Assembly (NCBI GenBank): GCA_024681875.1
Contig: JAILAA010000011.1
Span: 1 to 35,052 of the forward strand
Reading direction: 5' to 3'
Source of the DNA: Prevotella sp.
GTDB taxonomy: Bacteria > Bacteroidota > Bacteroidia > Bacteroidales > Bacteroidaceae
Length of the DNA stretch: 35,052 nucleotides
Shown here piece after piece: positions 9,404-34,153 of the stretch. The translations under genes were made by a program, and so were the position numbers. The notes under the pieces are model-generated. The model did not search any database. It saw nothing but the letters and a program-made list of their open reading frames with translations, and was not told the DNA's origin. How positions within the stretch are numbered: position 1 is the stretch's first letter; every line of letters starts with the position of its first letter.

Positions 9404-9412
9404 TTTGATAAT

Positions 9413-10822: not shown

Positions 10823-10847
10823 CCATAAAAGAAGAAAAGGAACAAGC

Positions 10848-11903
10848 ATGACATTTAAATACCAGACATCGGACTGTATGCCACGCCTCTATCCTGTGAT
10901 GACATTCAAGAAGTTGTTCATCACGAGCGGCGACAATCCCGAGCAACTGATTATCAAGCGCGGCAACTATCAGGAGAGCGAATGGGGTGAGGCCACGGCG
11001 CCCGTCATCGTGCAGAAGAAGACGTATGCCGCTCCCGCCCGCCTACAGTTGCAGTGGATGGCCATCACGGAGGGACGTGCCTACACGCTTGACCAGGAGC
11101 TTGACACGGCACGCCTTGAGAAGCTACTGGGCAAGAAAGCCTTGGAAGACGTGCCCCTTTACCGCTTCATTGTGGTAGGGATGGCTCCCTATGGGCACGT
11201 GGCATTGTGGTTGCGCGGCACGCTGAAGTCGAAACTCATCGGCTGGTATCAGGCCGAGCCTATGGACGCGAGGCAGCTTGCCGAGGCGATTAGTCCGCTC
11301 ACACCCGAACAATACTGTTCCGCCTGTCTGGTACAGGACGAGGCCGTCATGGCCAACCTTCAGCAGGTGGGGCTGCCGCAGCCAGACTACTATGAACGGC
11401 TGATGCGTCAGTTCCGCTACCGTTACCTTCCCCTTGAGGAGTACTGGAACGGCGAGGATTGGCAACGTTATGACGAGGAAGACCTCTACTACGACGACAT
11501 GACGATAAAACGCATTGAGGTGCAGCGCTACGACGGCACTTACCAACAGCGCGGCGACCTGAAGATGCTGCAGTACCACAAGGCGGGGCTGCCGCGCCGC
11601 ATGACCATAGAGTGGATGGAGGGCAGGAGCAACTTGCAGGCATACTATTGGCTCAACTTCGATTCTCTGTACCAGCTGATGGATCAGTTCCAAAGCGTCG
11701 CCCCTGACGAGAAACCCACTATCGTGATGCGTCTCGACAGCCGTGCCAACCGCTATGAGCTGGCACTTCAGGGCGGCCCGCTTGAGCAACCTGCCCCACT
11801 GCCTCAAGAATGCTACGAGATGCTCGTCTTCCGTAATGGCAACGAGTACTGGCGCAGCGACAACTTCTACAAAGAGGACGAGTCGGAATGGGAGTGGGAC
11901 TAA
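10848..11903 (+). CDS. DUF2931-like protein
   Basis: The 351-residue protein contains a stretch around residues 95-130 reading YRFIVVGMAPYGHVALWLRG. It is preceded by a basic/aromatic strand region with LQLQWMAITEGRAYTLDQEL. This pattern is what I recall of DUF2931, a family common in Bacteroidota. The C-terminal half (RLMRQFRYRYLPLEEYWNGE; KRIEVQRYDGTY) is rich in aromatic and charged residues and ends very acidic (EDESEWEWD). There is no signal peptide at the chosen start. The more GC-rich sequence and lack of low-complexity tails set it apart from its neighbours. It sits between two members of the NPYY-motif module, so an accessory or immunity-type role is possible but unproven. The family call is from memory of the motif only. 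Confidence 0.6.
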   Translation: MTFKYQTSDCMPRLYPVMTFKKLFITSGDNPEQLIIKRGNYQESEWGEATAPVIVQKKTYAAPARLQLQWMAITEGRAYTLDQELDTARLEKLLGKKALEDVPLYRFIVVGMAPYGHVALWLRGTLKSKLIGWYQAEPMDARQLAEAISPLTPEQYCSACLVQDEAVMANLQQVGLPQPDYYERLMRQFRYRYLPLEEYWNGEDWQRYDEEDLYYDDMTIKRIEVQRYDGTYQQRGDLKMLQYHKAGLPRRMTIEWMEGRSNLQAYYWLNFDSLYQLMDQFQSVAPDEKPTIVMRLDSRANRYELALQGGPLEQPAPLPQECYEMLVFRNGNEYWRSDNFYKEDESEWEWD

Positions 11904-11945
11904 TCAGAAATTAAATAAGAATACTAATCATAAAACAAAAAAAAC

Positions 11946-12803
11946 ATGGGAAATACAACATGGGATCCGGATACCGGGAAAATAACGAGGACACCCGATC
12001 CTAATGAACCGAAAAAGCCAAAGCCAGCTTTCGCTCTCTTGACCGAGGATGGCGCAGATTATTATCAGGATGGTGTCAAAGTGGGATCGGAAAAGTTTGG
12101 ACAAAAAGAAGAAAAGCCAACCGACCGCTATGAAGGGTGGAGCCCCGATGGACCACGCTACAAAGTAGAGTACGATGAGGAAACGGGAATGTTCGACACG
12201 CCCGTGAACCCCTATCATCAGGACGAGCAAGCCAAACGCAAGTTCAAGGGACGCATGGACGAAGACGGATTCATCGTCTTTGATGAGGTTGACGACAAGG
12301 GCAATGTTATCAGCGTGGCCCCCACCAGCCTGAATGACCCCCCGAAACCGCCAACGCCGACGATACCTGAGACACCGGCCGCTCCAGACCCCTACGAGGG
12401 CTGGAGTCCCGACGACCCGAAGTACAAGATGCGCATGGACGAGGAGACGGGCCTCTTCGTGTTCGACAAAAATCCATACGTAGAGGAACCAGAACACCAT
12501 TTCAAGGGACGCATTGACGAAGAGACCCAAATGGTAGTCTTCGATGAGGTGGACGAGAATGGTAATGTCATCAGGGAGGCGCCCACTAGCCTCGATGACG
12601 ATGATGATGACGATGATGACGACGAGGAAGAAGAGAAGGAAGAAGAGAAGGAAGAAGAAAAGAAAGAAGAGGAGGAAGAAGAAGCCCCCAAAGCTGACAG
12701 CGGCAACATCACTAAGAACAAAGACGGAATGCTCGAATTCAAACAAAACGAGCAAAAGAAAGAGCGCCCCTCAGACCACAGGCCTCCGTTGGAACTATTG
12801 TAG
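11946..12803 (+). CDS. Unrecognised acidic protein with two GWSPD/NPY repeats
   Basis: The 285-residue product consists largely of two repeats, about residues 60-130 and 148-217. Each reads EGWSPD..., then DEETG..., NPY, FKGR, VFDEVD and APTSL. An uninterrupted run of ten Asp and a Glu/Lys-rich stretch follow (about 217-246). The tail ends PPLELL, matching the KLELL end of the protein at 9413-10822. The NPY position within the repeat parallels the NPYY blocks of the two upstream relatives. There is no signal peptide or membrane helix. This is the last gene before the promoter at 12829. Function unknown; membership of the same NPY/LELL module is the main clue. Confidence 0.75.
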   Translation: MGNTTWDPDTGKITRTPDPNEPKKPKPAFALLTEDGADYYQDGVKVGSEKFGQKEEKPTDRYEGWSPDGPRYKVEYDEETGMFDTPVNPYHQDEQAKRKFKGRMDEDGFIVFDEVDDKGNVISVAPTSLNDPPKPPTPTIPETPAAPDPYEGWSPDDPKYKMRMDEETGLFVFDKNPYVEEPEHHFKGRIDEETQMVVFDEVDENGNVIREAPTSLDDDDDDDDDDEEEEKEEEKEEEKKEEEEEEAPKADSGNITKNKDGMLEFKQNEQKKERPSDHRPPLELL

Positions 12804-12828: not shown

Positions 12829-12859
12829 TTGCATAATATAATATTTTAGTTTACCTTTG
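12829..12859 (+). promoter_or_regulatory. Bacteroidota-type promoter for the ubiquitin-like operon
   Basis: TTGC at 12829 and TACCTTTG at 12852-12859, separated by 19 bases, fit the Bacteroidota primary sigma factor consensus (TTTG/TTG at about -33 and TAnnTTTG at about -7). Transcription would start near 12866, about 80 bases before the Ubl start codon. It lies in the largest gap (12804-12947) within the plus-strand gene block. No terminator is evident between the upstream stop and this promoter. Confidence 0.75.
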
Positions 12860-12947
12860 CAGGAAAATTGTGAATACTATAGCATGGGTATGCTGTGTAT
12901 ATGAAACCTTATTAGACTAGTAAAAAACAACTAAAATTATAAGAATT

Positions 12948-13274
12948 ATGACAGATCAGGAATTTTATCAGGAAGAGTTTATCGTCATGCTTACCATCGA
13001 CGGTACGTCGTATGACGAGATTGAGGTAAAAGTGACGGATCCCAACAAAACCATCCGTGACCAGATTAACAGCATCGTACAGGTATTCGAACTGCCGAAA
13101 ATGGACAATGGCGGTAACCCCATCCAGTACCTCTTAGGCAAACTGATGGAAGATGACGAGGAGCCTGTCATTCTGGAGTTCGAGGACGAGGAAGGTCGTG
13201 AGATGGCCCTCATCGACTATGAAATTGCGCCAATGGACCATCTGCACCTCATCAGCGTTCCCATCGCAGGATAG
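12948..13274 (+). CDS. Ubiquitin-like protein with C-terminal Ala-Gly
   Basis: This 108-residue protein has the spacing of a beta-grasp ubiquitin fold: two N-terminal strands (EFIVMLTIDGTSYDEIEVKV), a helix (TIRDQINSIVQVFEL) and a strand-rich second half. The C-terminal part reads LIDYEIAPMDHLHLI followed by SVPIAG. In ubiquitin the corresponding text is LSDYNIQKESTLHLV followed by LRLRGG, so the final Gly here falls where the conjugated Gly of ubiquitin lies, with no residues after it to be trimmed. An E2-like gene follows 75 bases later, and JAMM, RING-like and E1-like genes are in the same run. It is therefore most likely the modifier that the E1 adenylates. A YukD/EsaB-type non-conjugated Ubl is the alternative. 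Confidence 0.8.
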   Translation: MTDQEFYQEEFIVMLTIDGTSYDEIEVKVTDPNKTIRDQINSIVQVFELPKMDNGGNPIQYLLGKLMEDDEEPVILEFEDEEGREMALIDYEIAPMDHLHLISVPIAG

Positions 13275-13313
13275 CATTCTAATTTAGAATTATGATTTTT
13301 GAATTAAGAGGTA

Positions 13314-13326
13314 TGGCCTTCGGCCA
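13314..13326 (+). other. Short hairpin between Ubl and E2 genes
   Basis: TGGCC-TTC-GGCCA forms a five-base-pair stem with a three-base loop in the 75-base gap, flanked by two AATTAAGA-type direct repeats. There is no T-run, so it is not a clear terminator. It might reduce read-through or stabilise the Ubl message; evidence is weak. Confidence 0.3.
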
Positions 13327-13349
13327 ATAAAAATTAAGAATTTTACAAA

Positions 13350-14009
13350 ATGAATCCCGCAATAAACAACTTTAACCTGAAAGAACTGAAAGGGCGCGAC
13401 GCACGCCTGTTCCAGGAGTGGAAGGAGCTGGACGCACTGTGCAGCAAGCGCAAACAGGAAGGCCCCAATCCGCTGAAACCATCATTGTCGTATATCATCC
13501 GCCGCAAGAACGCCGTAGGACTGCCCACTGAATTCGAGATATGGTACCGCTGCAAGAGTATTGTTGGCGTCGAGGAAACAGAACCGCCACGCAAGCCAGT
13601 CTTCGGATATCTGCATAAGATGAGCGTAGTGCTGCCTAACAACTATCCATCAGCCGACGGCAACCCGGTATTTACTTTCATCAGCGACGTGTGGCATCCC
13701 AATATCCGTTACAGCGGTTCATTCAAGGGCCATGTATGCCTCACCATAAAAGAAATGGGCGTGCTGGCCAGTATCAAGGACTTAGTGCTACGTGTCGAGC
13801 GCTATCTGAAGTACCAGATGTATCACGCACAGAATACTTACCCCTATCCTGAGGATCAGACCGTAGCTGAGTGGGTGCGCGAGGAAGGCGAACCCAACGG
13901 ATGGGTAAAGTTCACACAGGAAATGCCCGAAGAGCCTGCGCCGAAGCCTGCTCCTGCTGCTCCCGCAGAGGGTGCCGAACCGAAAAAGAAAATCTCACTG
14001 AGCATCTGA
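13350..14009 (+). CDS. E2-like (UBC-fold) conjugating protein
   Basis: Residues 85-160 carry the E2 signature: MSVVLPNNYPSADGNPVFTF (strand and NYP-type motif), WHPNI with the HPN tripeptide at 116-118, and GHVCLTI placing Cys130 where the E2 catalytic Cys lies. The His-to-Cys spacing is 14, against 10 in typical eukaryotic E2s, so a small insertion (RYSGSFKG) is present. A helix-rich stretch follows (LASIKDLVLRVERYLKYQM). The C-terminus is a Pro/Ala tail (APKPAPAAPAEGAEP). E2 proteins receive the Ubl from E1 as a thioester and pass it to target lysines. Neighbours Ubl, JAMM, RING-like and E1-like support this reading. It is 219 residues long, cytosolic, with no signal peptide. Confidence 0.8.
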   Translation: MNPAINNFNLKELKGRDARLFQEWKELDALCSKRKQEGPNPLKPSLSYIIRRKNAVGLPTEFEIWYRCKSIVGVEETEPPRKPVFGYLHKMSVVLPNNYPSADGNPVFTFISDVWHPNIRYSGSFKGHVCLTIKEMGVLASIKDLVLRVERYLKYQMYHAQNTYPYPEDQTVAEWVREEGEPNGWVKFTQEMPEEPAPKPAPAAPAEGAEPKKKISLSI

Positions 14010-14067
14010 CGAAAGGACGTTATAACGGAAAAACGTTGTGACGGAATAACGAAAAAATTACAGAATT

Positions 14068-15153
14068 ATGAAAAAGATAGTATTGATGGCACTGCTCTGT
14101 CTTGCTGTCCTCTTTGGACGGGCCGACGAGCAAAAGAAAATAACACTGAGCAACGACAATACCAAGGAGACCGTCAACCTGTCATACTGCAACATCTTCG
14201 TCACACTGATGAATCCTGACAGCGATGACGAATTCGGACAGGTGCTCATTGAGATAGAAAACCTGGACGAGCAGAAGATACTCGCCCTCTTCCACCAGCC
14301 TTATAAAGAAAAAGAAGTTAAGAAGCTCAAGCCCTCATTCCAATACGACAAACTATTCGGCGGAACAAAGGGTAAACGCGTTATCGACCCCTACAATCTG
14401 GAAACAGGGCAGGATGTGTTCATCGAGCCTTCTAACAAGTACCAACTGGCAGCCTTTAACGCACCAGCCGACAAAGAGATGGCTGTGACGCTGCCAATCT
14501 ACCTAAGCAAACCGAAAGAGGGTATCGTACAAAAGATTTTGGGCAAGGAAAAGCTGCTGTTGCTGCGCAAACAGGTCATCGAACTCGACATTACTGTAGA
14601 GCTGAAGCCCAGTGCCGAATACCTCGGACTGCTTGACGAGTACAAGAAGCTGAAGAAGGACGTGGACAACGCCGTATTCTGCACCAACAAGAAACACCGT
14701 CCAGGCGTGGAGGGACAGAAGGAGCCCTACCAGAAGCGTATGGACGAGCTGACAGCAAAGATTGACGCAGCCATCAGTGCACACGGGTGGAGTGCAAATG
14801 ACGGCGGCTATCAGCGCTTCAATGCCATCAAGGAGGACATCACCAAGATTGACTTGAGCAAACAAGAAGGTATTTGTCGCACACACCGCCCCAACCAAGA
14901 TCGTCCCAAACACCAATGCGGATACTGCAGTCTGTCTTTACAGCAGATATATCACAAGCTGGACGACCTCTACAAAAAGATTTACACCAGTAACGACCGT
15001 GCAGCCACCAAGGCCAGCGTCATGGGACAAGTAAACGGTCTGTATAATTGCTGCGTTGACCCTAATTGTGAAAAGCACGCATCTGCTTGGAGCAACGGGG
15101 GTGATTATAAGAATAAGATTATTGAACGATACAATCGCATTCAAGGCCTATGA
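14068..15153 (+). CDS. Secreted protein with Cys/His-rich C-terminus, unrecognised
   Basis: A signal peptide (MKKIVLMALLCLAVLFGRA, cleavage before DEQ) directs this 361-residue protein to the periplasm. Residues about 25-175 look like a beta-sandwich-type domain ending in VTLPIYLSKPK ... VIELDITVELK. This resembles the corresponding region of the next protein (MSIPVYLTHYEKK ... LEFSTKVK). The middle is helical. The C-terminal 75 residues concentrate Cys and His (ICRTHRPNQ, HQCGYCSLS, NCCVDPNCEKH), suggesting disulphides or a metal site. The stop overlaps the next start (ATGA), so the two are coupled. A periplasmic sensor or partner of the membrane proteins that follow is plausible; no known family recognised. 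Confidence 0.7.
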   Translation: MKKIVLMALLCLAVLFGRADEQKKITLSNDNTKETVNLSYCNIFVTLMNPDSDDEFGQVLIEIENLDEQKILALFHQPYKEKEVKKLKPSFQYDKLFGGTKGKRVIDPYNLETGQDVFIEPSNKYQLAAFNAPADKEMAVTLPIYLSKPKEGIVQKILGKEKLLLLRKQVIELDITVELKPSAEYLGLLDEYKKLKKDVDNAVFCTNKKHRPGVEGQKEPYQKRMDELTAKIDAAISAHGWSANDGGYQRFNAIKEDITKIDLSKQEGICRTHRPNQDRPKHQCGYCSLSLQQIYHKLDDLYKKIYTSNDRAATKASVMGQVNGLYNCCVDPNCEKHASAWSNGGDYKNKIIERYNRIQGL

Positions 15154-16694
15154 GGAACAGAATGCTCACACGGCTGGCCATCATATCCGGAGCACTATTC
15201 TGGACAAGCTCTATTCAGGCTAAAGATGTCATCGACACGCTTTATTCTTCAGATGGCGACCGAATCATCCTCACCTACTCTATCAATCAGAATGGTGAGA
15301 AGACCACCGTGCTCTTCACCAATGTACAGAAGAAGCTGGGGTCGGCTAACCAGCGAAAATACCGCAAGTTGGACGAGGTAGCCGTGGCTATCTTCGACCG
15401 TACCGGTTCATACAACGAAACGAAGTTTGAAGGGATGACACCTTCGGCATTTATGATTCCTGCTGGCGTCAGTTACACCCCATCTGACGACGGGTTCTAT
15501 CTCTTAGGCGACAACCCACAGCTGACTTTCACTGCTGGCAGCGAAGCACAGATGTCCATCCCCGTCTACCTGACTCACTATGAGAAAAAACGTCACTACA
15601 AAGTTTTCAGCCAGTGTGGAAACCTTGAATTCTCGACAAAGGTGAAAGGCGGAGGCGGAAGTGGCGGTGGTGCCAGAGCCAGTCGAGGTGGCGGAGACAG
15701 AGCAGCCAATGCTGATGACATTATCGTCAGCGAAGAACTGACCGACGAAGGACTGACGCCAACCGACGATGCAATGATTACTATCGCCAACGTGAAGAAT
15801 CAACTTGCCGGCGTCACGAAACTCCCCTTCCCCGAGGACCTCACTTTCCAGGCCAACCACCTGCGTGAATTGCGTAGCAAAATAGCCGACATGGAAGTGC
15901 TACAAGACATCAATGATGTGCTGGCAGCCTACGACAGGAAGAAAGCAGAGTTGGAAGAAGGCGCTGCTGCCGAACAACAGGCTGCTGCCGCTGCGGCACA
16001 GCAAGCCGCCAAGGAAGAGGCAGCTGCACAACAGGCCAAGCAGGATTCCATTCAGGCTGCCCAAGAGAAGAAAGCCGACGAGGACAAGAAAGGCATGATG
16101 TGGCTCATCGGTGGCATCGCCGGTGCCGGCATGTTGCTTATGTTTGGCAAGCAAATCTTCCAGACCATCAAGAACAACAAGATGCAGCGCATGATGATGG
16201 ACAACATCAACAAAGCGCAGCAGCAGGCACTTAGTCAGGTGAACATCCCCGGCATGGAGAACAACCCGTTGGGCAAAGAGATGAACCAGATGGTGAAGAA
16301 AGAGGCGAACAAGAAAATGACAGCTGAGAGCAACGCCGCCAAGGAGAAGCTGGCCTCCATGATGAAAGGAGGCGGTACAGCAGCAATGGGTGGCCAGGCA
16401 AGTGCAGGTGCTCCTGCAGCAACCAGTGCCCCAGCTGCAGCCAGTGCCCCAGCAAACCCTGCAGCCACTTCTGGCACAGCCGCACCAGCCACTTCTGCCG
16501 CTCCTGGCACACCCGGCACACCCGGCAAGCGCCCACTAAGGAAGGCAAGCGAAGTGAGAGCTGCCGCAGGGCTGTCGCCACAAAGCTCTGGCCTCGACAT
16601 CACCGTGAAGCCACAACATCAGTCTATGAACGATGTCATCCCCGCTAAGTACAAGCGTTGGCGCAAGCCTGGAACCCCCGATAGCAACAAATAA
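15150..16694 (+). CDS. Single-pass membrane protein with periplasmic beta domain
   Basis: This 514-residue protein begins with a signal peptide (cleavage after SIQA, residue 24). A periplasmic beta-rich domain follows (25-165) that resembles its upstream neighbour. A Gly/Ser/Arg linker (167-186), a helical region with an Ala/Gln coiled coil (235-308), a transmembrane helix (about 315-333, MMWLIGGIAGAGMLLMF) and a cytoplasmic part follow. The latter has a basic helical stretch, an Ala/Pro linker (about 405-450) and a conserved-looking tail (DVIPAKYKRW). The topology puts a periplasmic domain and a cytosolic tail on one chain, consistent with signal transmission across the inner membrane. It overlaps the upstream gene by four bases. 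No family recognised. Confidence 0.7.
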   Translation: MRNRMLTRLAIISGALFWTSSIQAKDVIDTLYSSDGDRIILTYSINQNGEKTTVLFTNVQKKLGSANQRKYRKLDEVAVAIFDRTGSYNETKFEGMTPSAFMIPAGVSYTPSDDGFYLLGDNPQLTFTAGSEAQMSIPVYLTHYEKKRHYKVFSQCGNLEFSTKVKGGGGSGGGARASRGGGDRAANADDIIVSEELTDEGLTPTDDAMITIANVKNQLAGVTKLPFPEDLTFQANHLRELRSKIADMEVLQDINDVLAAYDRKKAELEEGAAAEQQAAAAAAQQAAKEEAAAQQAKQDSIQAAQEKKADEDKKGMMWLIGGIAGAGMLLMFGKQIFQTIKNNKMQRMMMDNINKAQQQALSQVNIPGMENNPLGKEMNQMVKKEANKKMTAESNAAKEKLASMMKGGGTAAMGGQASAGAPAATSAPAAASAPANPAATSGTAAPATSAAPGTPGTPGKRPLRKASEVRAAAGLSPQSSGLDITVKPQHQSMNDVIPAKYKRWRKPGTPDSNK

Positions 16695-16713
16695 AAACAC
16701 AATCATTACACTT

Positions 16714-18537
16714 ATGAGAAAGATTCAAGCATTAGCACTGTTCGCGGTGCTGCTCGTTATTCCGGCATTACAGCCGTGGGCAGACGCTGCAAGGCCAAGA
16801 AAGCAAGTGCAAGAGCCGCCAAAGCCTACTGTGATGGAAGCCTTCCAGCAGAAGCTGCAGGCTGATCCCTTCCTCGCAGATTCAAAGCTACAGACGCTGA
16901 ACGACGAGATAGAGAATCATATTGGCAACTTGCTGAATTGTAAGGACAAGGCCGAGTACGTGCAAAAAAACCAGCTGAATGAGTATGCTGAGGGATTGCA
17001 GTTACAGCTGCAAGAGGCAAGGGACAAGAAGGACATCTTCATGCAGGACATCCTCAAGGACTACACCGAGCTGGAGTCACAGGACATCGTGAATGCCCGC
17101 CAGCAGATGGAAGAAGTGCTTGACGGCAAATTAAACTTGCTGGAGAAGAACCTTACCCGACTGACCAGTACAATGGAAGAGAAAGAAGATACCGGGAAGG
17201 AACTGCCATGGCCACTTATCGGTGCCATCGCCGGTGGTCTGCTCTTGCTCATTATCATCATTGCCATTGTCAGCAAGAGCAAAGGAAAAAAGAAGGTTAA
17301 CACTTACAGACCATCGACGGCGGGACCTCGCACTCCCAAGCCAGGCTATCGTGCTCCTGGTAGCAATAGCCAGCAGGTATCTGCCGACGGCAATATCGTA
17401 GTACGCCGCAAGACGGCTACCATCCTGAAAAAGCAGAGTCTTGAGGACGTCATCGACAACCCCAATTACTTGAAGGTGGACGCTGTCGATTTCACTTATG
17501 AGAGTGCCGTCCGCCGCATGTATATCAAGAATCAGTGCATCATAGACATTTATAACATGTACGCAGAAGACCTGCGCAACCCCGAGAGTCCAAAGGAGGA
17601 CGGCTGCATGGTCTTAGGCCGCTGGGTACACGATACGGAGAGCAACGAATACTACGTCTCGCTAGAACAGATAGTGATGCCTGGCGACGATGCTGTATTC
17701 GAGGAATATGCCCTGAACTTCGGCGGCAAAATCAAGCTGAAGGTATTAGAGGAACTGCGTCGTCTGCGCCGCGAGACCAACCTACAGTACGACCTCACCT
17801 GCTGGGTGCACTCGCATCCTGGCTTGGGTGTGTTCTTCAGCAACAGCGACACATCGGTGCAGGATCAGCTGAAACATCCACAGCACCCGCTCTTCCTCAC
17901 TGCCCTCGTCGTCGACATCCTCACGCCGATGCAGGATGTGGGAGTCTTCACCTATCGCCGCGACCAGAACATCAACTCTAAGAGCGAGCTGAAAAAGATG
18001 TACTCTCTCATCGAATGGTACCAATGGGCACAGGAGAGTCTTAAGAATGCCGCACAGCGCCCCGTGGGTGCCGAGCAGAAAGAGCTGAGTGCAGACGAGT
18101 ACTTCAATACACTGGAGAAGGCAGAAAACCGTGATGACAGCTGTCATGACGTGCAAATCAACAAGAACGTTATCGTAGACATCTGCATGGACCTAGCCAC
18201 TGAGGGCGACGACGTTTTGGCAATGCTTCACGGCTTTGCCTCACAGCATGGGCAGAAGACAGAGTATGTGGCAGAGAAAATCTCGAACAACGAGAAAGAA
18301 AACAACCTCAGCCTCATCGGCTGTTTTGTGGCTGCCCCACACTGCAGCATACCTACCGTGCGCCGCGCCGTACAGGACTATCTCGACCGCATCCATTTCG
18401 TGTTGGTCTACACACCCAGCGACAGCCTGCTTACCACGATTCCCGTGGTCAATGGCGATTTAGTCGTTGAAAACGAATTCTACGGTGAACAGAGAATGGA
18501 AATCTTAAAAACATGGATCAAACAAGTCAGACAATAA
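16714..18537 (+). CDS. Membrane-anchored JAMM/JAB isopeptidase-like protein
   Basis: The ATG at 16714 is chosen because it gives a signal sequence (MRKIQALALFAVLLVIPAL); an upstream in-frame ATG adds only a non-hydrophobic leader. Residues 35-160 form a periplasmic coiled-coil region, 167-188 a transmembrane helix (LIGAIAGGLLLLIIIIAIV) followed by positive residues, then a cytosolic part. The JAMM motif is complete: E295 in KEDGCMVLG, H366 and H368 in HSHPGLGVFF, then S376 and D379 (H-x-H-x7-S-x2-D). JAMM enzymes are zinc metalloproteases that cleave ubiquitin-like tags. A further domain of about 170 residues follows. With Ubl, E2 and E1 genes alongside, removal of the Ubl from targets near the inner membrane is the likely role. 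607 residues. Confidence 0.85.
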   Translation: MRKIQALALFAVLLVIPALQPWADAARPRKQVQEPPKPTVMEAFQQKLQADPFLADSKLQTLNDEIENHIGNLLNCKDKAEYVQKNQLNEYAEGLQLQLQEARDKKDIFMQDILKDYTELESQDIVNARQQMEEVLDGKLNLLEKNLTRLTSTMEEKEDTGKELPWPLIGAIAGGLLLLIIIIAIVSKSKGKKKVNTYRPSTAGPRTPKPGYRAPGSNSQQVSADGNIVVRRKTATILKKQSLEDVIDNPNYLKVDAVDFTYESAVRRMYIKNQCIIDIYNMYAEDLRNPESPKEDGCMVLGRWVHDTESNEYYVSLEQIVMPGDDAVFEEYALNFGGKIKLKVLEELRRLRRETNLQYDLTCWVHSHPGLGVFFSNSDTSVQDQLKHPQHPLFLTALVVDILTPMQDVGVFTYRRDQNINSKSELKKMYSLIEWYQWAQESLKNAAQRPVGAEQKELSADEYFNTLEKAENRDDSCHDVQINKNVIVDICMDLATEGDDVLAMLHGFASQHGQKTEYVAEKISNNEKENNLSLIGCFVAAPHCSIPTVRRAVQDYLDRIHFVLVYTPSDSLLTTIPVVNGDLVVENEFYGEQRMEILKTWIKQVRQ

Positions 18538-20891
18538 TGAAGAAAATAATTTTAGGATGTGCCCTGCTGGCAAGCTTAGCACAGGTGAATGCGCAGGACG
18601 TTAAGAAGATAGAGTTCTGCGACAAGAAATACGAATATGCGGAAGGCAAGGACAGTATCACACTGTTCCTCAAGGTTCTGAACAGCAACGGCAAGTCGTG
18701 CGACGATGTCACCACGGCCAACCTGAACGACTACCTCGTCATCAAAGAGGATGACAACATCATTGCGCCAGACCGCTGCATGTACAGCTCCGTCAGTACA
18801 GGTCAGCGTATCCCTGCCGGTTTCACCTTCTCTGTGCTCGTCGACCTAAGTATTCCTGAGGAAGGCAAGGGACAGATTTTCGACGCCGTGGGTCAACTGG
18901 TGCAGAGTGCACCCGATAGCTGCGTTTTCCTGTCATTCTTCGGCGACGAGGTAACCACCACCCAGATGGTGACGAAGAAAAACTTCCAGGATTTTGAGCA
19001 AGAGTTCAAGAAACATTCCGAGAACAAGTTCTTCTATGGTGCACTCTACTCCAAATTGGTTGAATTTTCCAGTGACAAGGCGGAATTCGAGGATTCAGTG
19101 CGCACCGCTGCTGGCTATGAGCGCAATGCCGCTATCGCCCGTCGAGCCATTGCTGCAAAGGACAAGAATCTTCTCTTCGTGTTCACTGAAGGCAACAAGC
19201 GCCCTGCCGACGAAGTAATCTCCTTCATTGAGGTAGCTGACTATCAGACCAACACCGCACATCTGGTGCCGAAGGTATATGCCCTCTATTATACTGGCGA
19301 AGGCGTGGACGAGAACGTAGAGCTGACCCTCGACGCCGTCACCACGCCGCGCGATGACAATGGTCCCATCGAAGACCGTCAGGGTATGTATATGCCCAGC
19401 GACAATCTGGCCAGCGTGCTGAGCAATTTCCAGCAGGTTGTGAAGGATGCCATGTATGATTTTGCCTTCTCCTATCGCGCTACGAAAGGAAAGGTCTACA
19501 ATGGCCTCGTCAAATATACCGCTGAATGGAAAGGCGGAAATGTCGGAGAAGTAGATTACTCCATTGGCTCAGCGGAAACACCATGGCCCGTAAAGTCCGA
19601 GTCTACAGGTGACACTATCACGAAGGTGCTGGTGGCACTGCTCATCGCCCTGCTCACGTTTGCTATCTTCTTCCTCATTATGAAGGTACTGGTGCCCTCC
19701 ATCAAGTCTAAGCGTTTCGGCATGAAGTATTATAAGAAGTACGAGCCGGAGGCCAACGTCTCACGCCGCATCTGTACCTACTGTCGTCAGGACATCGAGC
19801 CTGGCCAGATGGTGGTGATGAAATGTAAGCATATCATGCACGTGGCCTGCTGGCAGCAGAACGGCTATAAGTGCGTGGAGTACGGACAGAACTGTAAGGA
19901 CGGCATACAGGACCACGTAGCATGGAAGGAGATGTTCTCAAAGGCTTCCCTACGCGACACCTACCAGACACTGGCCGGCATCCTCGCCGCACTGGTGAGC
20001 TGGATTGTCTTCGAGCTGACAGGACGCGGTTTATTCCAAGGGCTGGGCGAAGGCATTGCCAAAGCCTTTATCAGCAATGAAAACATGGTTGGCGAATGTG
20101 CAGTTAAAGTGTCAGCCCTACTTACCATTGGCCTCTTGTTGGGATTCTTCCTCTCGCTTGTCTTCCGCTACTTCGATGAATACCGTAAGAAAGACGCTAT
20201 GATCTACCTGAAAATTGTGGGCATGTCACTGCTCTCGGGCATCATCGGCATGGCAGCTATGGCCGTGGGCGGCATCATTTTCTGCTTGCTAGTATCAGCC
20301 ACAGGCACACCCTATTGGTATTGTTCACTACCCGCCTACATTCTCTTCGCTGTCTGTGTGCCCTTGAGCCTCACAATCAAGTCGTCCATCCCCATGAAGA
20401 GTGCCTTACTGGGCGGTCTCATCGCTGCTGCTATCGGCTTCCTTGTGCTTATGTTCGGCTCCATAGGCAATATTGAATGGATGCCCAACCTGCTTAACTT
20501 CATCATCTTCGGCGGTGGCCTGGGTGCTTCGCTCGTTACCGTGCGTATGCTGGCTGAGCGCTACTTCCTGCTCATCAAGAATGGCGTAAAGGCCGGTCAG
20601 AAGATACCTATCCACAAGTGGATGAACGCCACCGGTGGCGGCAACAAGGTAACCATCGGTGCTACCGGCGATTGCGAAGTACAGATGAACTGGGAGAAGA
20701 GCAACAAGGTGGCAAAGGAGCACGTACAGCTCTTCATCGACCAAGCCAAGACACTTCCTATGCTAAAGGCCCTCGTGCCTGGTGTGCTCTACAACATGCG
20801 TTCAGAGCTGCCCGCCAACAAGCCCACCGTGCTGTCGAATGGCGACACGTTCAAGATTGGCGACACCATTTTCGAATATGTTGAGTCTTAG
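18537..20891 (+). CDS. Membrane protein with VWA-like, RING-H2-like and FHA-like parts
   Basis: The ATG at 18537 overlaps the preceding stop (TAATG) and starts a signal peptide (MKKIILGCALLASLAQVNAQ). Residues about 95-225 resemble a VWA fold with a degenerate metal motif (VLVDLSIPEE; LLFVFTEGN). A transmembrane helix (363-386) leads to a cytosolic cluster C413-x2-C416-x13-C430-x-H432-x2-H435-x2-C438-x7-C446-x6-C453, which follows RING-H2 order except for the last spacing. Several more membrane helices occur between 477 and 670. The final 85 residues look FHA-like (KVTIGATGD; LSNGDTFKIGDTIFEY), but the usual Arg and Ser phosphate contacts are Ala (709, 726). An E3-like role with phospho-signalling input is plausible; all three domain calls come from reading motifs. 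Confidence 0.7.
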   Translation: MKKIILGCALLASLAQVNAQDVKKIEFCDKKYEYAEGKDSITLFLKVLNSNGKSCDDVTTANLNDYLVIKEDDNIIAPDRCMYSSVSTGQRIPAGFTFSVLVDLSIPEEGKGQIFDAVGQLVQSAPDSCVFLSFFGDEVTTTQMVTKKNFQDFEQEFKKHSENKFFYGALYSKLVEFSSDKAEFEDSVRTAAGYERNAAIARRAIAAKDKNLLFVFTEGNKRPADEVISFIEVADYQTNTAHLVPKVYALYYTGEGVDENVELTLDAVTTPRDDNGPIEDRQGMYMPSDNLASVLSNFQQVVKDAMYDFAFSYRATKGKVYNGLVKYTAEWKGGNVGEVDYSIGSAETPWPVKSESTGDTITKVLVALLIALLTFAIFFLIMKVLVPSIKSKRFGMKYYKKYEPEANVSRRICTYCRQDIEPGQMVVMKCKHIMHVACWQQNGYKCVEYGQNCKDGIQDHVAWKEMFSKASLRDTYQTLAGILAALVSWIVFELTGRGLFQGLGEGIAKAFISNENMVGECAVKVSALLTIGLLLGFFLSLVFRYFDEYRKKDAMIYLKIVGMSLLSGIIGMAAMAVGGIIFCLLVSATGTPYWYCSLPAYILFAVCVPLSLTIKSSIPMKSALLGGLIAAAIGFLVLMFGSIGNIEWMPNLLNFIIFGGGLGASLVTVRMLAERYFLLIKNGVKAGQKIPIHKWMNATGGGNKVTIGATGDCEVQMNWEKSNKVAKEHVQLFIDQAKTLPMLKALVPGVLYNMRSELPANKPTVLSNGDTFKIGDTIFEYVES

Positions 20892-20904
20892 ACAGCTAGC
20901 ATGA

Positions 20905-20976
20905 TGTACACAAAAATACAAAGCCTCTGTGCTCTTGTACATAGGCTTTGTACAGAGTGTACAGAGGCTCTGTACA
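20905..20976 (+). promoter_or_regulatory. Five TGTACA palindromes and competing hairpins upstream of E1
   Basis: The 98-base gap before the E1-like gene contains TGTACA at 20905, 20936, 20949, 20958 and 20971. TACAAAGCCT (20917-20926) pairs with AGGCTTTGTA (20943-20952). AGCCTCTGT (20922-20930) can instead pair with ACAGAGGCT (20961-20969). The two stems share bases and are mutually exclusive. There is no T-run. It could be an operator array or an RNA switch controlling E1 and the baseplate genes downstream. Confidence 0.6.
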
Positions 20977-20989
20977 TTTACTAAAAATC

Positions 20990-22294
20990 ATGGAAAAAGA
21001 AAAATACGAATGGGGCGAGGGTGTGTTCACACTGCTCTCATGGTTCAAGAAAGAGCGCGTGAAGAATGCACGCGTACTTGTGGCCGGTGCTGGTGCGCTA
21101 GGCAATGAGGTAGTAAAGAATCTGGCCCTCTTCGGCGTGGGACACATCTATGTGGCCGACTTCGACCGTATAGAGATTTCCAACCTCACACGCTCTATCC
21201 TCTTTCGCGAAGAGGATGCCTACAGTCACGCCTTCAAAGCTGACATAGTGGCAAAGCGCGCAAGGGAAATCAATCCACAGATTGAGGTGACACCTATTGT
21301 GGGTAATCTCTTCTCCGAAGTAGGCTTTGGTCTGTATCGCTCCGTCGATGTCATCATCGGCTGCCTCGACAGCCGTCTTGCCCGCTATCTGCTCAACCGC
21401 ATGGCCATGCGTGCCGGAAAGAGCTGGATTGACGGCAGCATCGAAAACCTGACGGGTGCCGTCAAGGTTTACAGTCCCGGTATTAGCTGCTACGAATGTG
21501 GCCTGTCTCGCGATGAGTTCAACAACATCATGCTGCGCACAGGTTGTGCCGACGTAGTGCGCACACAGACCGAGCATGGCCGCATCGCCACCACGCCTAT
21601 CAGCGCCAGCATCGTGGGTGCCCTACAGGTGCAGGAAGCTATGAAAATCATCCACAAGGATGAGGTCAATGAGCCCCAGAACACCCAAGAGGCCCAAAAG
21701 CCTCAGGAAGTTCAGGAAGTCGAAAAGCCCCTCATCCAGTTGGTAAAGCCCCTAAAGCCCATCACAGAGAAAAAGAAGTTGCAGGCCGGCCCACCATTCA
21801 AGACCTTAGAGGGCAAGATGCTACGCTACGAGGGTATGACCTGCACCACCAGTATCTATCGCATCGGTGCCTGGAAGAGTAATTGTCCGGCCCACGAGCG
21901 CTGGGAGAATGTTATAGAGTGCAAGGGACTATCGGCCAAAATGACTGTCGGTGAAGTGCTGGCAAAACTGAAAGAGATGCTTAACGCAGGATGGGTGGAA
22001 ATCAACATGGTGAACAACAAGTTCATCGATGTCATCGTCTCCGACCGTCCCGAGAAGGAGTTCCAGGTGATGATTCCCGAATCACAGCTTGACGACTATA
22101 TCAAGCAGGACAATGAGCTGCGCCAACTCAGCTATCGCACACTCATCCATAAACATTTCTTCGAGAACATCGATGACCGTTTCCCCTATCAGCAACTCAC
22201 ACTGCAACAGATAGGCATCCCGCCTTTCGACGTGCTAATGGTGTCATCAGACAAGGGTGTCAACTACATAGAACTATCCGCCGATGCCTTCTAG
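20990..22294 (+). CDS. E1-like (ThiF/MoeB fold) Ubl-activating enzyme
   Basis: The ATG at 20990 is preferred over a TTG at 20948, which would start within the repeat structure. The 434-residue protein has the nucleotide loop VLVAGAGALGNEVVKNL (29-45), acidic D57/D59 with ISNLTR (63-68), K83, and IIGCLDSRLARYLLNR (122-137). These are all hallmarks of E1/ThiF adenylyltransferases. Cys167 and Cys170 (SCYEC) may bind zinc. Cys186 in RTGC, ahead of ISASIVGALQVQEAMKII, is the best candidate for the thioester Cys. Residues 225-265 are a Gln/Pro/Lys linker, then a C-terminal domain ends IGIPPFDVLMV, reminiscent of a ubiquitin-fold (UFD-like) domain. Its end overlaps tssG by 11 bases. Confidence 0.85.
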   Translation: MEKEKYEWGEGVFTLLSWFKKERVKNARVLVAGAGALGNEVVKNLALFGVGHIYVADFDRIEISNLTRSILFREEDAYSHAFKADIVAKRAREINPQIEVTPIVGNLFSEVGFGLYRSVDVIIGCLDSRLARYLLNRMAMRAGKSWIDGSIENLTGAVKVYSPGISCYECGLSRDEFNNIMLRTGCADVVRTQTEHGRIATTPISASIVGALQVQEAMKIIHKDEVNEPQNTQEAQKPQEVQEVEKPLIQLVKPLKPITEKKKLQAGPPFKTLEGKMLRYEGMTCTTSIYRIGAWKSNCPAHERWENVIECKGLSAKMTVGEVLAKLKEMLNAGWVEINMVNNKFIDVIVSDRPEKEFQVMIPESQLDDYIKQDNELRQLSYRTLIHKHFFENIDDRFPYQQLTLQQIGIPPFDVLMVSSDKGVNYIELSADAF

Positions 22295-23159
22295 CCTTCC
22301 CAACGATATCAATATCGAACTTCTGTTGAAATACTATCCGCTTGGTACACTGCGGGTGGAATTGCAAGGATTGCACAAACGCAATACCTACAACGACATC
22401 ATCGAGACCGAGGAGAAGGACGATATACTGGAGGTGAAAGTGGGGCGTAACAGCATCTATAACGCCTTGCCGGAATATATGTTCCACCCCATCGACCGTT
22501 TCGACAACTTACCGGCCTATGAGGAGAAAGAGCATTTCGACGAACAATTAGAGCAACAGGAGGAGGAAATACGCAATGCCTATCTCTTCTTTGCTCCTAT
22601 TGATGTGCTGTTGCTGAAGCTTCGTGCCGATGTGCGCGAAAAACTAGAGCCGTTGGCATCGGAAAACATTGTGATGCAGCAAATCATCGGTGACGCCCTC
22701 ACTGACGAACAACAGCAAAACCGATTCATACGCCAACTCATTCCCTTTCTGCCCAACTGTAAACGCATCCGTGGCAACAGTACCCTTATTACACTCATGC
22801 TGCGAAAGGTATTCATGGAAGAGGGACTGAGTATCAGACGGAAAAACGAGACACGCAACTTTACCGACGAGGAGCCACGATACGAGAACTATGTCGACAT
22901 GGAACTTGGCAACGGCTACGTAGGCAGCACCTACAGCGAGACGATATGCAATTATGAGATACACTACTGGTCGGACGCGGAGTGCAACGAAGATTTCTTG
23001 AAACTCATCGACGAAGTAGAGATGCTAAGACAATTTGTGAAGGACTGGTTCCTCAGTATTGAGGAAGAACTAACCTTCGACATCCAACACGACGAGCCGC
23101 CATTACGACTCAACGACGATGTATTCTTCAACTATTTGAACTATAATACTAACATATAA
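22284..23159 (+). CDS. tssG: Probable T6SS baseplate protein TssG
   Basis: The 291-residue protein begins inside the last codons of the E1-like gene and ends seven bases before tssK, in a block with tssE and tssF. TssG is the expected missing member of the TssE-F-G-K baseplate. The sequence supports this moderately: a beta-rich opening (LRVELQGLHKRNTYNDII), then a helical stretch with an LxPFLP-type phrase (RQLIPFLPNCKRIRGN), a short basic segment and a C-terminal part around WFLSIEEELTF. The family diverges strongly in Bacteroidota, so the call rests on size, order and these general features. It acts in the cytosol at the base of the T6SS sheath. Confidence 0.65.
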   Translation: MPSSLPNDINIELLLKYYPLGTLRVELQGLHKRNTYNDIIETEEKDDILEVKVGRNSIYNALPEYMFHPIDRFDNLPAYEEKEHFDEQLEQQEEEIRNAYLFFAPIDVLLLKLRADVREKLEPLASENIVMQQIIGDALTDEQQQNRFIRQLIPFLPNCKRIRGNSTLITLMLRKVFMEEGLSIRRKNETRNFTDEEPRYENYVDMELGNGYVGSTYSETICNYEIHYWSDAECNEDFLKLIDEVEMLRQFVKDWFLSIEEELTFDIQHDEPPLRLNDDVFFNYLNYNTNI

Positions 23160-23166
23160 CAATACT

Positions 23167-24156
23167 ATGCCAAAAAGAATCAGCTGGAAAAAAGGCATGC
23201 GCCTTACCGACGAAGTACTCAAGGCGTCGGACGATTGTACTTCCGAGTACATCAGTCAGGCCATGACACTGGCAGCCAACGGGCGTTTCGGCCTTATTCC
23301 CACCATAAAGCCCTTCGAACTGCAACTAAGCATCACCAAGGGTTTTGTCGATGTAGAAGCCCTATCGTGTACAGCCATCACCCGTGGCGGGCTGCTCATT
23401 GACGTACATTTCGACACCAAGTTCACCAACACCTTCGATGGGCGCGTTCAAATACCGAAAGACGCCGAGGATCCGGAGCTGCTGCTCTGCATCAATGTAG
23501 ATCCTGACGAGTGGAGCGACACCAACGAAGGCTATCAGGAACCAGATTACTCCTTCTCACTGGTCAATCCGAAGAACGGTCTGCCTGGCTACGGCATACC
23601 TATCGCACGTATCATCTACGAGGACGGATGGCGTGAGGACAATGTCAACTTCGTGCCGCCTTGTCTCACACTGGCCGCCCATGGCAAGTTCATGCAACTG
23701 TTCCAACAATTCGTACAGATGCTGCAAGCCATTGACGAAACGGCACATGAGCAGTCGGCAACAGCGGCAACCACCGCTTTGGGCATCTTCTGGCCAGCTG
23801 TGCGCGAGCAGCTCATTAATGTATCCACAGGACAGAGCACCATGACGCCACAGCAATTTCAAGCCTGCGTGCAGAAAGTAGTGTCGGCATTTGCAATAGG
23901 CTGCGAACTCGACGAGCTTGTAGACCTAGAGGATGCTGAGCAGTTCCGCAGATACTCTACGCTGCCCTACAGTTTTCGCACAGCCTACACCCGCATCAAG
24001 CAGGGTATGAGTCTCTGCTACTCCATCAGCCAGAAGTTGGAAAAGTTCGGACAGCTGAAACGCGAAGAGCCAAAGCCCGTACCACCCCCAGAACCAGTGA
24101 AACCTACGCCACCGCCTGTGGATTCAAGACGCAGATGGGAGGGTAAGAACATATGA
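23167..24156 (+). CDS. tssK: T6SS baseplate protein TssK
   Basis: The 329-residue protein opens with KRISWKKGMRLTDEVLKASD, the W..GM.L pattern at the start of TssK. It continues with a beta-rich shell domain (FGLIPTIKPFELQLSITKGFVDVEALSC; ITRGGLLIDVHFDTKF). A central helical part (QLFQQFVQMLQAIDETA) and a Pro-rich C-terminus (KPVPPPEPVKPTPPP) follow. TssK trimers link the cytosolic baseplate to the membrane complex. The protein is shorter than proteobacterial TssK, as usual for subtype iii systems. Its stop overlaps the tssE start by four bases (ATGA). Confidence 0.85.
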   Translation: MPKRISWKKGMRLTDEVLKASDDCTSEYISQAMTLAANGRFGLIPTIKPFELQLSITKGFVDVEALSCTAITRGGLLIDVHFDTKFTNTFDGRVQIPKDAEDPELLLCINVDPDEWSDTNEGYQEPDYSFSLVNPKNGLPGYGIPIARIIYEDGWREDNVNFVPPCLTLAAHGKFMQLFQQFVQMLQAIDETAHEQSATAATTALGIFWPAVREQLINVSTGQSTMTPQQFQACVQKVVSAFAIGCELDELVDLEDAEQFRRYSTLPYSFRTAYTRIKQGMSLCYSISQKLEKFGQLKREEPKPVPPPEPVKPTPPPVDSRRRWEGKNI

Positions 24157-24659
24157 GTTTCATCAGCACACCTATCACCTACGAAGAGGGGTCACTCATT
24201 CTGCATCGTGACCTGCCCCATCGACTAGCCATGCTCGACAACTTGGTGGAGTTAATAGTGTTCACACCACGAGGCAGCTTTGACGGCGACCCCGATTTCG
24301 GTTTTGAATACTGGAACCATGAATACAGCAATGTAAACCAGCGTGAATTCAATGCAAGCCAAGGTGTCAGAGGAGGTTTTGGCATGGGGATGCTGCAAAA
24401 TGACATTACAAAGAAGGAGTGTGAAGACAGTATTCGCGACAGTCTGGCCACCTATGAGCCGATGCTGAAAAACGTCACCGTGAACATCGTCATGGAGGCA
24501 GCCTACGAGAAAGGAGCCCACCGCAAGAAGATACCGTCGAAGTATGAGCTGAACGTCGTTGTCGATGGTATGCTCGACGATGGCGTAGGCACTCGCCGTC
24601 CCTACCGCAAGATTGTCACCTTCTATGTAGAACCCGTAGTAAAGAAAGCATACAGGTAA
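24153..24659 (+). CDS. tssE: T6SS baseplate protein TssE (gp25-like)
   Basis: The 168-residue product has the gp25/TssE pattern. An N-terminal helix (HRLAMLDNLVELIVFTPRGS) is followed by DPDFGFEYW, the conserved segment at the end of the first helix region. Then come KKECEDSIRDSLATYEPMLKN and a final beta pair (ELNVVVDGMLDD; KIVTFYVEPV). The C-E-D-S-I arrangement with Glu in the EDSI position is typical of the family. TssE initiates sheath polymerisation on the baseplate. It is co-translated with tssK and lies 28 bases before tssF. Confidence 0.88.
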   Translation: MSFISTPITYEEGSLILHRDLPHRLAMLDNLVELIVFTPRGSFDGDPDFGFEYWNHEYSNVNQREFNASQGVRGGFGMGMLQNDITKKECEDSIRDSLATYEPMLKNVTVNIVMEAAYEKGAHRKKIPSKYELNVVVDGMLDDGVGTRRPYRKIVTFYVEPVVKKAYR

Positions 24660-33283: not shown

Positions 33284-34153
33284 ATGAAAATCAACATCAC
33301 CGCAACAACCGACGTAGGACGCAACCGCGACAATAACGAAGACGCCTACACATTCTGTGCCGACCTGTCAAACCCCGAATGGCAAATGAGGCGCACGGGC
33401 GGCTACGTACCGCTCAACAAGCAAGGCGCCCTGCTCGTCGTAGCCGACGGTATGGGCGGCGCCAATGCCGGCGAGGTGGCCGCAGCCATAGCCATCAACA
33501 GCATCAGCACCACCTTTACACCGCAGGCCGCCGACGAAGCCGCTGCTGACGACAGCAAGACACGCTCACTGCTGGCCAAGTCCGTTAAAGACGCCGATAC
33601 GGCCGTCGCCCGGCGCATGGTCGACGACCCCAACACCGTCGGCATGGGCACCACCATCGTGCTCTGCTGGCTCAAAGAAGGCAAAGCCTATACCGCCTGG
33701 TGCGGCGACAGCCGTTGCTACCTGTACAACGACAAAGGCCTACAGCCGCTCACCAAAGACCACTCCTACGTGCAGGAGCTTGTCGACCGCGGAGAAATTA
33801 CCGAAGAAGAAGCCTTCACCCACCCCGACAACAACGTCATCACCCGCGGATTAGGCGACTTCGACACGGCAGGCATGGCCGACATCACCGTGGCCGACGT
33901 TAAGGCCGGCGACTTCATCCTGCTCTGCTCCGACGGCCTCTGCGGCTACTGCACCAACGAAATGATTGAAAAAGTCATGGCCGACAGCCAAGGCGACATC
34001 GACCTCTGTGCCGAGAAGCTGCAGCAGATGGCCCTTGACGTGCCCGGCGACGACAACATCTGCATCATCGTGGCCTCGCTGCTCAGCGACGACGACAACC
34101 GCGCCATAGCGCCTTCGCGCATCAGACAGTTCTTCAAGAAAGTGTTCGGCTGA
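33284..34153 (+). CDS. PP2C-type protein phosphatase (PppA-like)
   Basis: The 289-residue protein carries all main PP2C (PPM) motifs: TTDVGRNRDNNEDAY with D20, LLVVADGMGGANAGE with D55, GMGTTIVLCWL, WCGDSRCYLY, ITRGLGDF, LCSDGLCGYC and GDDNICIIVASL. It is soluble and cytosolic. It would reverse phosphorylation by the kinase encoded at 29951-31462, in line with the PpkA/PppA pairs of other T6SS loci. The gene is the last on the plus strand before the repeat-rich gap. Confidence 0.92.
   Translation: MKINITATTDVGRNRDNNEDAYTFCADLSNPEWQMRRTGGYVPLNKQGALLVVADGMGGANAGEVAAAIAINSISTTFTPQAADEAAADDSKTRSLLAKSVKDADTAVARRMVDDPNTVGMGTTIVLCWLKEGKAYTAWCGDSRCYLYNDKGLQPLTKDHSYVQELVDRGEITEEEAFTHPDNNVITRGLGDFDTAGMADITVADVKAGDFILLCSDGLCGYCTNEMIEKVMADSQGDIDLCAEKLQQMALDVPGDDNICIIVASLLSDDDNRAIAPSRIRQFFKKVFG

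Follow-up and report, generated by a model that had tools for sequence, protein, structure and literature searches.

What is a seemingly complete ubiquitin-like protein (Ubl) conjugation pathway doing among the genes of a contractile secretion machine? The question is raised by a 35,052-nucleotide stretch of Prevotella sp. DNA (assembly GCA_024681875.1, contig JAILAA010000011.1, positions 1 to 35,052; the window hereafter), a single plus-strand run, some 35 kb long, of a Bacteroidota type VI secretion system (T6SS) cluster. A preliminary description made from the sequence had reported a Ubl, an E2-like protein, a JAMM protein, a protein with a RING-H2-like Cys/His array and an E1-like enzyme in one plus-strand run, with T6SS tip genes on one side and baseplate genes on the other, and had proposed that reversible Ubl conjugation controls T6SS assembly or tags tip or cargo proteins. 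The five proteins do lie there, between the tip genes (Hcp, VgrG and a DUF4280 protein) and the baseplate genes (TssG, TssK, TssE and TssF), and we conclude that they very probably make up a complete predicted Ubl-E1-E2-RING-JAMM cascade set into a T6SS locus, a reading drawn from a predicted fold for the Ubl, profile matches for the other folds, conserved active sites, gene order and long co-inheritance. We lean, with less assurance, towards a role for this pathway in controlling the injection machine. Genomes (G) and loci (L) are cited below by the working handles of the analysis (L036 is G014, L020 is G009 and L078-L079 is G567).

Components of the predicted cascade

The module reads Ubl, E2, p3, p4, JAMM, RING, E1, all on the plus strand, as are the other features located below. 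Its members were compared across the 41 loci described in the next section, where a filter on length and start left full-length open reading frames (ORFs) for 38 Ubls, 40 E2s, 21 JAMM proteins, 28 RING proteins and 27 E1s; the alignments hold 38 of 38, 37 of 40, 21 of 21, 27 of 28 and 26 of 27 of these loci, respectively, each with the window's own protein added.

The Ubl (12948 to 13274) has 108 amino acids, a predicted beta-grasp fold and the C-terminus SVPIAG. Modelled with AlphaFold2 from a diverse alignment that included distant Ubls, it forms one beta-grasp domain (pLDDT 87.8, pTM 0.79) that resembles ubiquitins in Foldseek and VIA structure matches; the model from a narrow alignment was unusable (pLDDT 42). 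The protein is named by neither Pfam nor NCBIfam, the Pfam ubiquitin model matching 2 of 39 members with a best value of 0.05, and strong E-values against polyubiquitin chains were set aside as sums over repeats of a single short stretch. The terminal AG of the preliminary description belongs to a PIAG end found in all 39 aligned rows, one of which continues with GSKK; this Ubl (L018:9641-9976) is likely a precursor needing trimming. Thirteen distant Ubls end in AG or PG, and six of them carry one to four further residues, which fits trimming by a JAMM protein. A database Ubl of 161 amino acids (P0147) reads as two tandem Ubls after an AG, cut short.

The E2 (13350 to 14009) is a UBC-type protein with HPN at residues 116-118 and the catalytic cysteine at Cys130, both in register in 38 of 38 rows and in 8 of 8 rows of a mixed alignment. 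It matches Pfam UQ_con at 1.6e-5 (24.9 bits against a cut-off of 27) and UBE2K by profile at 6.5e-4. Between the window and five relatives, dN/dS was 0.017-0.038 for the Ubl and 0.031-0.056 for the E2, the two lowest values in every comparison among the genes measured, a set without TssK, TssE and TssF. The two genes that follow encode p3 (14068 to 15153), with an N-terminal hydrophobic, signal-like stretch, and p4 (15150 to 16694), with one central transmembrane segment (TM; residues 315-333); from their hydropathy both are predicted secreted or membrane proteins.

The JAMM peptidase, recognised by profile, probably starts at 16714 and ends at 18537, in an ORF that opens at 16633. By hydropathy it has a signal-like N-terminus, one TM (residues 190-218 of the 634-residue ORF) and then the JAMM domain, predicted to be cytosolic, which matches Prok-JAB at 0.0045, under the cut-off, and Rpn11 by profile at 5.6e-4. 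In the numbering from 16633, its zinc site (E322, H393, H395, S403 and D406) does not vary among the 22 aligned rows; numbering from the likelier start turns E322, H393, H395 and D406 into the E295, H366, H368 and D379 first reported.

Partly overlapping this ORF, the RING protein (18537 to 20891, in an ORF opening at 18513) has, by hydropathy, an N-terminal domain, a TM at residues 365-399, the RING at 421-461, several further TMs and a C-terminal domain. The zf-RING_16 model matches it at 7.2e-4, under the cut-off, and matches 22 of 28 members, at best at 1.3e-5. Its Cys/His array supplies eight ligands (C421, C424, C438, H440, H443, C446, C454 and C461, the last pair spaced by six residues, not two), which are invariant in 28 of 28 T6SS-type rows and kept in the distant genomes G357, G487, G551 and G327. 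By eye the N-terminal domain is vWA-like. Likeness of the C-terminus to FHA domains is weak (Pfam FHA matches 2 of 28 members), and a reading of this domain in terms of phosphorylation was dropped because of that count and because the residues expected for phosphothreonine binding are not all there. The membrane anchoring of the JAMM and RING proteins played no part in the preliminary description, and nor did the missing TssN discussed below.

The E1 gene (20990 to 22294 from its likely ATG; the ORF opens with TTG at 20948) encodes a ThiF-fold protein with a C-terminal domain (ThiF 8e-48). Its single ThiF stretch covers residues 35-245 of 448, and the protein matches UBA7 by profile at 9.7e-23 and is matched as well by ThiF, MoeB and MccB. 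Three cysteines, C181, C184 and C200 in the TTG numbering, are invariant in 27 of 27 rows; C200, which by comparison with other E1s is suitably placed, may be the catalytic cysteine for transthiolation. In L034, L039, L036 and, by position only, G357, an extra protein of 248-285 amino acids with a signal-like N-terminus stands between RING and E1; the window has none.

The folds on which the preliminary description depended were thus recovered, the beta-grasp by AlphaFold2 and UBC, ThiF and JAMM by profile. Neighbours from Ubl to E1 are spaced by -4 to +98 nt, E1 and tssG overlap by 11 nt, and all the way from Ubl to TssF adjacent genes overlap by at most 11 nt or stand at most 98 nt apart. 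The GC content of the module (0.514) is that of the rest of the window (0.518), so that there is no mark of recent insertion, and the invariance of active-site and zinc residues, taken with this spacing, overlap and composition, argues that the module is not a chance assembly.

Distribution and descent

A single scan of 84,980 species genomes found 41 loci, mostly in Prevotella and Prevotellaceae from rumen, with others in Xylanibacter, Palleniella, Barnesiella, Muribaculaceae and Tidjanibacter. Counted over loci with enough flank, p3 was present in 41 of 41, p4 in 37 of 38, the Ubl in 36 of 36, JAMM in 37 of 37, and RING and E1 each in 36 of 36; on the T6SS side, VgrG was present in 30 of 32, Hcp in 26 of 32, and TssG and TssK in 35 of 36, the miss being L036. 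Protein searches covered the best 120 of 534 matches (all but one with PF00179, by reading) and the best 120 of 576, and the E2 was not found in the viruses, phages or plasmids searched. A TssC sheath of the Bacteroidota family was found in 14 of 16 module genomes and not in G009 or G014.

Among 393 genomes drawn from the order, the E2 occurred in 6, TssC in 18 and both in 5 (Fisher 6.6e-7; 2.2e-4 without two genomes already known), and in these five the two genes lie about 5 to 10 kb apart. Three of the five, G357, G487 and G551, are only distantly related to the Prevotella group. The full order from TssH to TssF, with the module at the same place, is present in G357 and G487, where p3 and p4 are not recognised by the profiles. 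The order in G551 is partial, with Ubl, E2 and p4 at the edge of one contig, JAMM and RING on a different, short one and no E1 seen; stops within its E2 match fall beyond the end of the open frame. In a TssC tree of 19 selected rows, from which the window is absent because it has no TssC, ten module T6SSs group together with that of G567, a genome without the module, nested among them, and eight other T6SSs, with and without TssN, lie past a 100/100 branch. An E1 tree of 16 selected rows repeats the order G357, G487 (81/86), Prevotella group. If the root lies between these two sets of T6SSs, which the trees do not prove, the module would have had a single origin and been lost in G567. The tie between module and T6SS is old and conserved and reaches distant Bacteroidales. 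The preliminary description had allowed that the neighbourhood might be a one-off insertion, which the 41 loci and this conserved tie refute.

The tie to T6SSs alone proved too narrow. In a draw of 296 genomes of the phylum, beyond the central group, two genomes with a distant E2 (G080 and G174) carry E1-Ubl-E2-JAMM-RING close to a gene that is PAAR-like by motif, and, about 20 and 43 kb further along that contig, respectively, genes for an extracellular contractile injection system (eCIS). In G080 the sheath, gp25 and spike are identified by Pfam and the tube-like genes by look-alike, in G174 all by look-alike. In a further draw of 248 genomes of the order of G080 and G174, 14 had the E2, six by weak matches; 9 of the 14 had a sheath, compared with 5 of 60 E2-negative genomes (p 2.5e-5; 8 of 14 against 4 of 60 over the curated cut-off), the 60 being the first by handle and assigned to this draw by their numbers. 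With strong E2 matches alone, 5 of 8 had a sheath (p 1.1e-3). Module and sheath share a contig in four genomes: besides G080 and G174, these are G853, where injector genes begin 7 kb from the module, and G837, where the sheath is 45 kb away; in G327 both are present on different contigs. Relatives of the module are thus enriched in Bacteroidota genomes with eCIS, an association newly found here. An nSTAND1 NTPase stands right before E1 in G080 (L074:13837-15561, 8e-38), with a look-alike in G174.

T6SS genes around the module

The window opens with Hcp, VgrG, the DUF4280 tip protein and variable cargo-side genes, which lead into the module; the sheath genes and TssH, present in relatives, lie outside it. 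The Hcp/TssD domain (1602 to 2408; Pfam TssD 5.1e-27) is preceded by about 59 KDEEK repeats, forming a lysine/glutamate linker, and an Ala/Pro tract (window 1-2408); a 15-bp DNA repeat at 315-1204 has 59 copies. Because the frame (frame-3 translation) stays open through this linker as far as the window edge, the Hcp is a long fusion; an Hcp of 1084 amino acids is present in one relative. VgrG/TssI (2491 to 4797) matches Phage_GPD at 5.4e-12 and Phage_base_V at 3e-8, and the DUF4280 protein (6386 to 8110; Pfam DUF4280 1.8e-33), which has a C-terminal extension, we take to be a PAAR-like tip. The cargo-side proteins (8126-12803) share a KPKLEL-type motif and C-termini in LELL or MLL, features found in L020, L025 and L031 and not in most loci. 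A phage-type integrase lies directly upstream of the Barnesiella T6SS locus (L052:2787-3983), with look-alikes, judged by the N-terminus, in Palleniella, G567 and G014, so that the cluster may be a mobile island.

After the module come TssG, TssK, TssE, TssF, peptidoglycan-binding and glucosaminidase proteins, a Ser/Thr kinase, a WG-repeat protein and a PP2C phosphatase. TssK (23167 to 24156) is matched by NCBIfam TssK at 3.6e-8 and by Pfam at 2.7e-4, and TssE (24153 to 24659) by GPW_gp25 at 1.5e-4, all under cut-off. TssG (22284 to 23159) and TssF (24688 to 26487) have no Pfam or NCBIfam match, and no curated model gives these names, which we assign by homology and by position and size. In 8 of 8 control T6SS loci the TssG family profile matches a protein beside the TssK or TssN gene (E 2.6e-21 to 1.3e-10), and the TssF profile a protein of about 600 amino acids. 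The kinase (29951 to 31462; Pkinase 1.2e-40), with one TM by hydropathy, and the phosphatase (33284 to 34153; PP2C_2 1.7e-14) occur in the window and three long loci and were not matched on the fetched stretches of G357 and G487.

One expected gene is missing. TssN is systematically encoded between tssK and tssG in Bacteroidota T6SSs (PMC10781749), and in the window tssG and tssK adjoin. TssN exceeded its cut-off in none of 16 module genomes, four weak matches lying on contigs other than that of TssC, and no TssN was found in G357, G487 or G551; overall, none of the 17 TssC genomes that bear the module had it over cut-off, compared with 7 of the 13 that lack the module (p 8.4e-4, uncorrected for kinship or incomplete assemblies). 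TssR was found in 1 of the 16 (G006), again on a contig other than that of TssC. An account of the loss of TssN by the module is weakened by G556, G640 and G567, which have neither. Homology of the module to TssN, O, P, Q or R was rejected, since every one of 11 pairs compared with HH-suite (six TssN sequences, and single sequences of O, P, Q and R from one locus) fell below 2% probability. The membrane complex of this T6SS branch thus appears to lack TssN, and the module may or may not belong to it.

Relation to known systems and possible role

Operons for bacterial Ubl conjugation are already known, and it is the secretion-machine setting that is new. Bil (BilABCD, ISG15-like) likewise has an operon in which Ubl, E1, E2 and JAB/JAMM are each encoded by a gene of their own, and a JAMM that processes the Ubl C-terminus, but it is characterized by two Ubl domains, a CEHH-type E2 and an E1 with inactive and active adenylation domains (PMC11354881). 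The window has instead one Ubl domain (108 amino acids, a single beta-grasp), an HPN-type E2 with M, V and K at +6, +8 and +13 from Cys130, and an E1 with a single ThiF stretch, along with a RING protein, membrane anchors and a T6SS locus; as far as sequence can tell, with all three Bil features lacking, the module is not Bil. In 2006 Iyer, Burroughs and Aravind described type 6d operons, which also join Ubl, JAB, E1-like and E2-like genes and include an example from Bacteroides thetaiotaomicron, but their E2-like protein lacks the classical histidine, and the row consulted has neither RING nor secretion genes (PMC1779556). Bub comprises bacterial ubiquitination-like operons, of which 544 were counted in a paper that does not use the word secretion (PMC13373217). 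The type II cyclic oligonucleotide-based antiphage signaling system (CBASS) uses E1, E2 and JAB chemistry in Cap2 and Cap3 and conjugates through a terminal Gly or Ala, but Cap2 combines E1 and E2 in a single protein, and what becomes conjugated is cGAS (PMC10097602). The window encodes separate E1 and E2 proteins plus a Ubl, and no cGAS-like enzyme was found among its proteins scanned with Pfam. Burroughs, Iyer and Aravind reportedly predicted, in 2011, bacterial RING fingers alongside E1, E2, JAB and YukD-like Ubls, and we know of no link of those operons to T6SSs or eCIS.

All five components recur in the ubiquitin/E1/E2/RING/Rpn11 cascade of Caldiarchaeum (PMC5654768), which differs in being archaeal. 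Its ubiquitin is among the top structural matches of the window Ubl, and archaeal Rpn11-like chains are the best profile matches of the window JAMM. To our knowledge that cascade is soluble and has no tie to a secretion machine. The T6SS itself shares TssC and Hcp families with T6SSiii of Bacteroidota (GA1-GA3, TssNQOPR) and has homologues of its TssG, TssK, TssF and VgrG, but the module branch differs in that TssN is missing, TssR is absent from the locus contig, the Ubl module stands between spike and baseplate genes, and part of the lineage has a kinase and PP2C in the cluster. The word ubiquitin is absent from the main text of two T6SS surveys and occurs twice in a third, at least once in a passage concerning TssN (PMC10781749). 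Among the matches listed from the open literature, with subscription journals and preprints mostly outside, we found no paper joining Ubl conjugation with T6SSs or contractile injectors, nor did the preliminary description know of a T6SS with a ubiquitin-like pathway of its own.

One could envision the following sequence of events. The JAMM protein would trim residues past the terminal AG of the Ubl, E1 would adenylate the Ubl and hand it on, and Cys130 of the E2 would carry it. The multi-pass RING protein would bring the charged E2 to a substrate on the cytosolic side of the membrane at which the T6SS is assembled. Joined through its C-terminal glycine to some component of the inner-membrane-located injection machine, the Ubl would control assembly or firing, and the tethered JAMM protein would take the tag off again, making the switch reversible. 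The T6SS is suggested as target by the position of the module, by co-inheritance and by the association with a second kind of injector. Because the module sits between their genes and its relatives accompany another contractile injector, tip and baseplate proteins (VgrG/DUF4280 and TssG/TssK) would be the likeliest substrates, although any one of them would be a doubtful choice. Bacterial Bil is reported to tag a phage tail tip and block assembly, and by analogy with this precedent the tag may hold assembly back until its removal at the membrane.

Several observations weigh against control of the machine. G567 has a related T6SS, yet a search of its entire genome gave neither an E2 nor a RING match, and there is just a 107-residue and a 259-residue gene at the module's place, and the module is therefore not needed for every such T6SS to persist. 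In L036, the module lies near kinase and WG genes in a 2.0-Mb genome in which neither TssC nor a phage-type sheath was found; this locus holds the whole module (p4 not being recognised) with an FHA-like gene, by eye, and kinase, WG and LysM-like genes, and no T6SS genes were present on the fetched stretches. G567 and L036 together disfavor an obligatory role. The module is missing from most of the T6SSs sampled (13 of 18 TssC genomes). In the order with eCIS, E2-positive genomes tend to exceed the negatives in size, a bias that may exaggerate the sheath contrast; no sheath was seen in 5 of the 14, and in 5 more it lies on a different contig; the E2 match is weak in 6 of the 14, and four of these (G711, G737, G808 and G814) showed no E1 or RING match on the fetched stretch and thus may represent a different type of E2 locus. 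In all six proteins aligned from that order most of the zinc ligands of the RING are replaced, in a stretch that looks rather U-box-like. The proposed link is supported in part, by the old and conserved tie to the T6SS; relatives of the module also occur in eCIS genomes and once, in L036, with neither TssC nor a phage-type sheath found.

Alternatively, the pathway could act not on the machine but on secreted cargo or on effectors carried at the tip, its tags serving to sort or load these or to keep them inactive until firing. The ubl gene does come directly after the variable cargo-side genes, and genes that are PAAR-like by motif lie close to the module in the eCIS-order loci of G080, G174 and G837, but the cargo-side genes are very different from locus to locus, in contrast to the nearly constant Ubl and E2, and no cargo feature is common to all loci, the C-terminal LELL-type motif occurring in few; we consider this unlikely. 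A Bil- or Bub-like anti-phage or stress module, aimed at phage tails and merely living in a T6SS locus, would accord with the resemblance of injectors to phage tails and with the fact that bacterial Ubl cascades of known role are mostly phage defences (PMC10097602, PMC12687455, PMC13373217). It seems quite unlikely in view of the co-inheritance with one T6SS lineage, the position within the T6SS same-strand run, the large membrane-anchored JAMM and RING proteins and the lack of Bil-specific features; moreover, a PADLOC scan of the seven module proteins gave good matches only for E1-E2 models on the ThiF domain, the others being weak (ZorA at 0.0021 on the JAMM protein before its TM, and two on the RING protein at 0.067 and 0.59).

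The absence of TssN permits another reading, in which a covalently attached Ubl takes the place of the built-in ubiquitin-like domain of TssN in linking baseplate and membrane. That domain has been proposed to dock the baseplate, and TssN has been likened to EccD (PMC10781749). The distribution of TssN described above fits such a replacement, and the Ubl model resembles an ESX-5 inner-membrane chain. This chain is presumably EccD. Against it stand the three genomes with neither TssN nor module, the lack of homology in the 11 pairs compared, and the consideration that free-floating injectors need no membrane dock, and we regard it as improbable. That the genes serve no conjugation at all but a sulfur-carrier or peptide-adenylating system of the ThiS/MoaD/MccB kind, as the ThiF fold of the E1 and its matches to ThiF, MoeB and MccB might suggest, is highly improbable given a dedicated E2 with an intact active site, a RING protein and a JAMM protein in the same run, and no cofactor genes were recognised within the window.

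Control of the injection machine by Ubl conjugation is thus the reading we prefer. Its boldest form, on balance rather doubtful, would be that T6SSs and extracellular injectors of Bacteroidota own a dedicated, membrane-tethered Ubl pathway (E1, E2, a RING/U-box-like ligase and JAMM) that tags the machine and gates its assembly, a detachable tag replacing the TssN docking domain in the TssN-less T6SS branch. Bacterial Ubl pathways of known role serve mostly phage defence or cofactor synthesis. Control of a T6SS by a pathway with a ligase and a membrane-fixed remover would, if true, be a new way of regulating these systems, would mark phage-tail-like machines as a likely setting for the origin or diversification of protein tagging, and would offer a genetically tractable bacterial E1-E2-E3-deubiquitinase set with a visible output, sheath assembly. 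The finding also points to a T6SS branch of gut and rumen Bacteroidales whose membrane complex appears to do without TssN.

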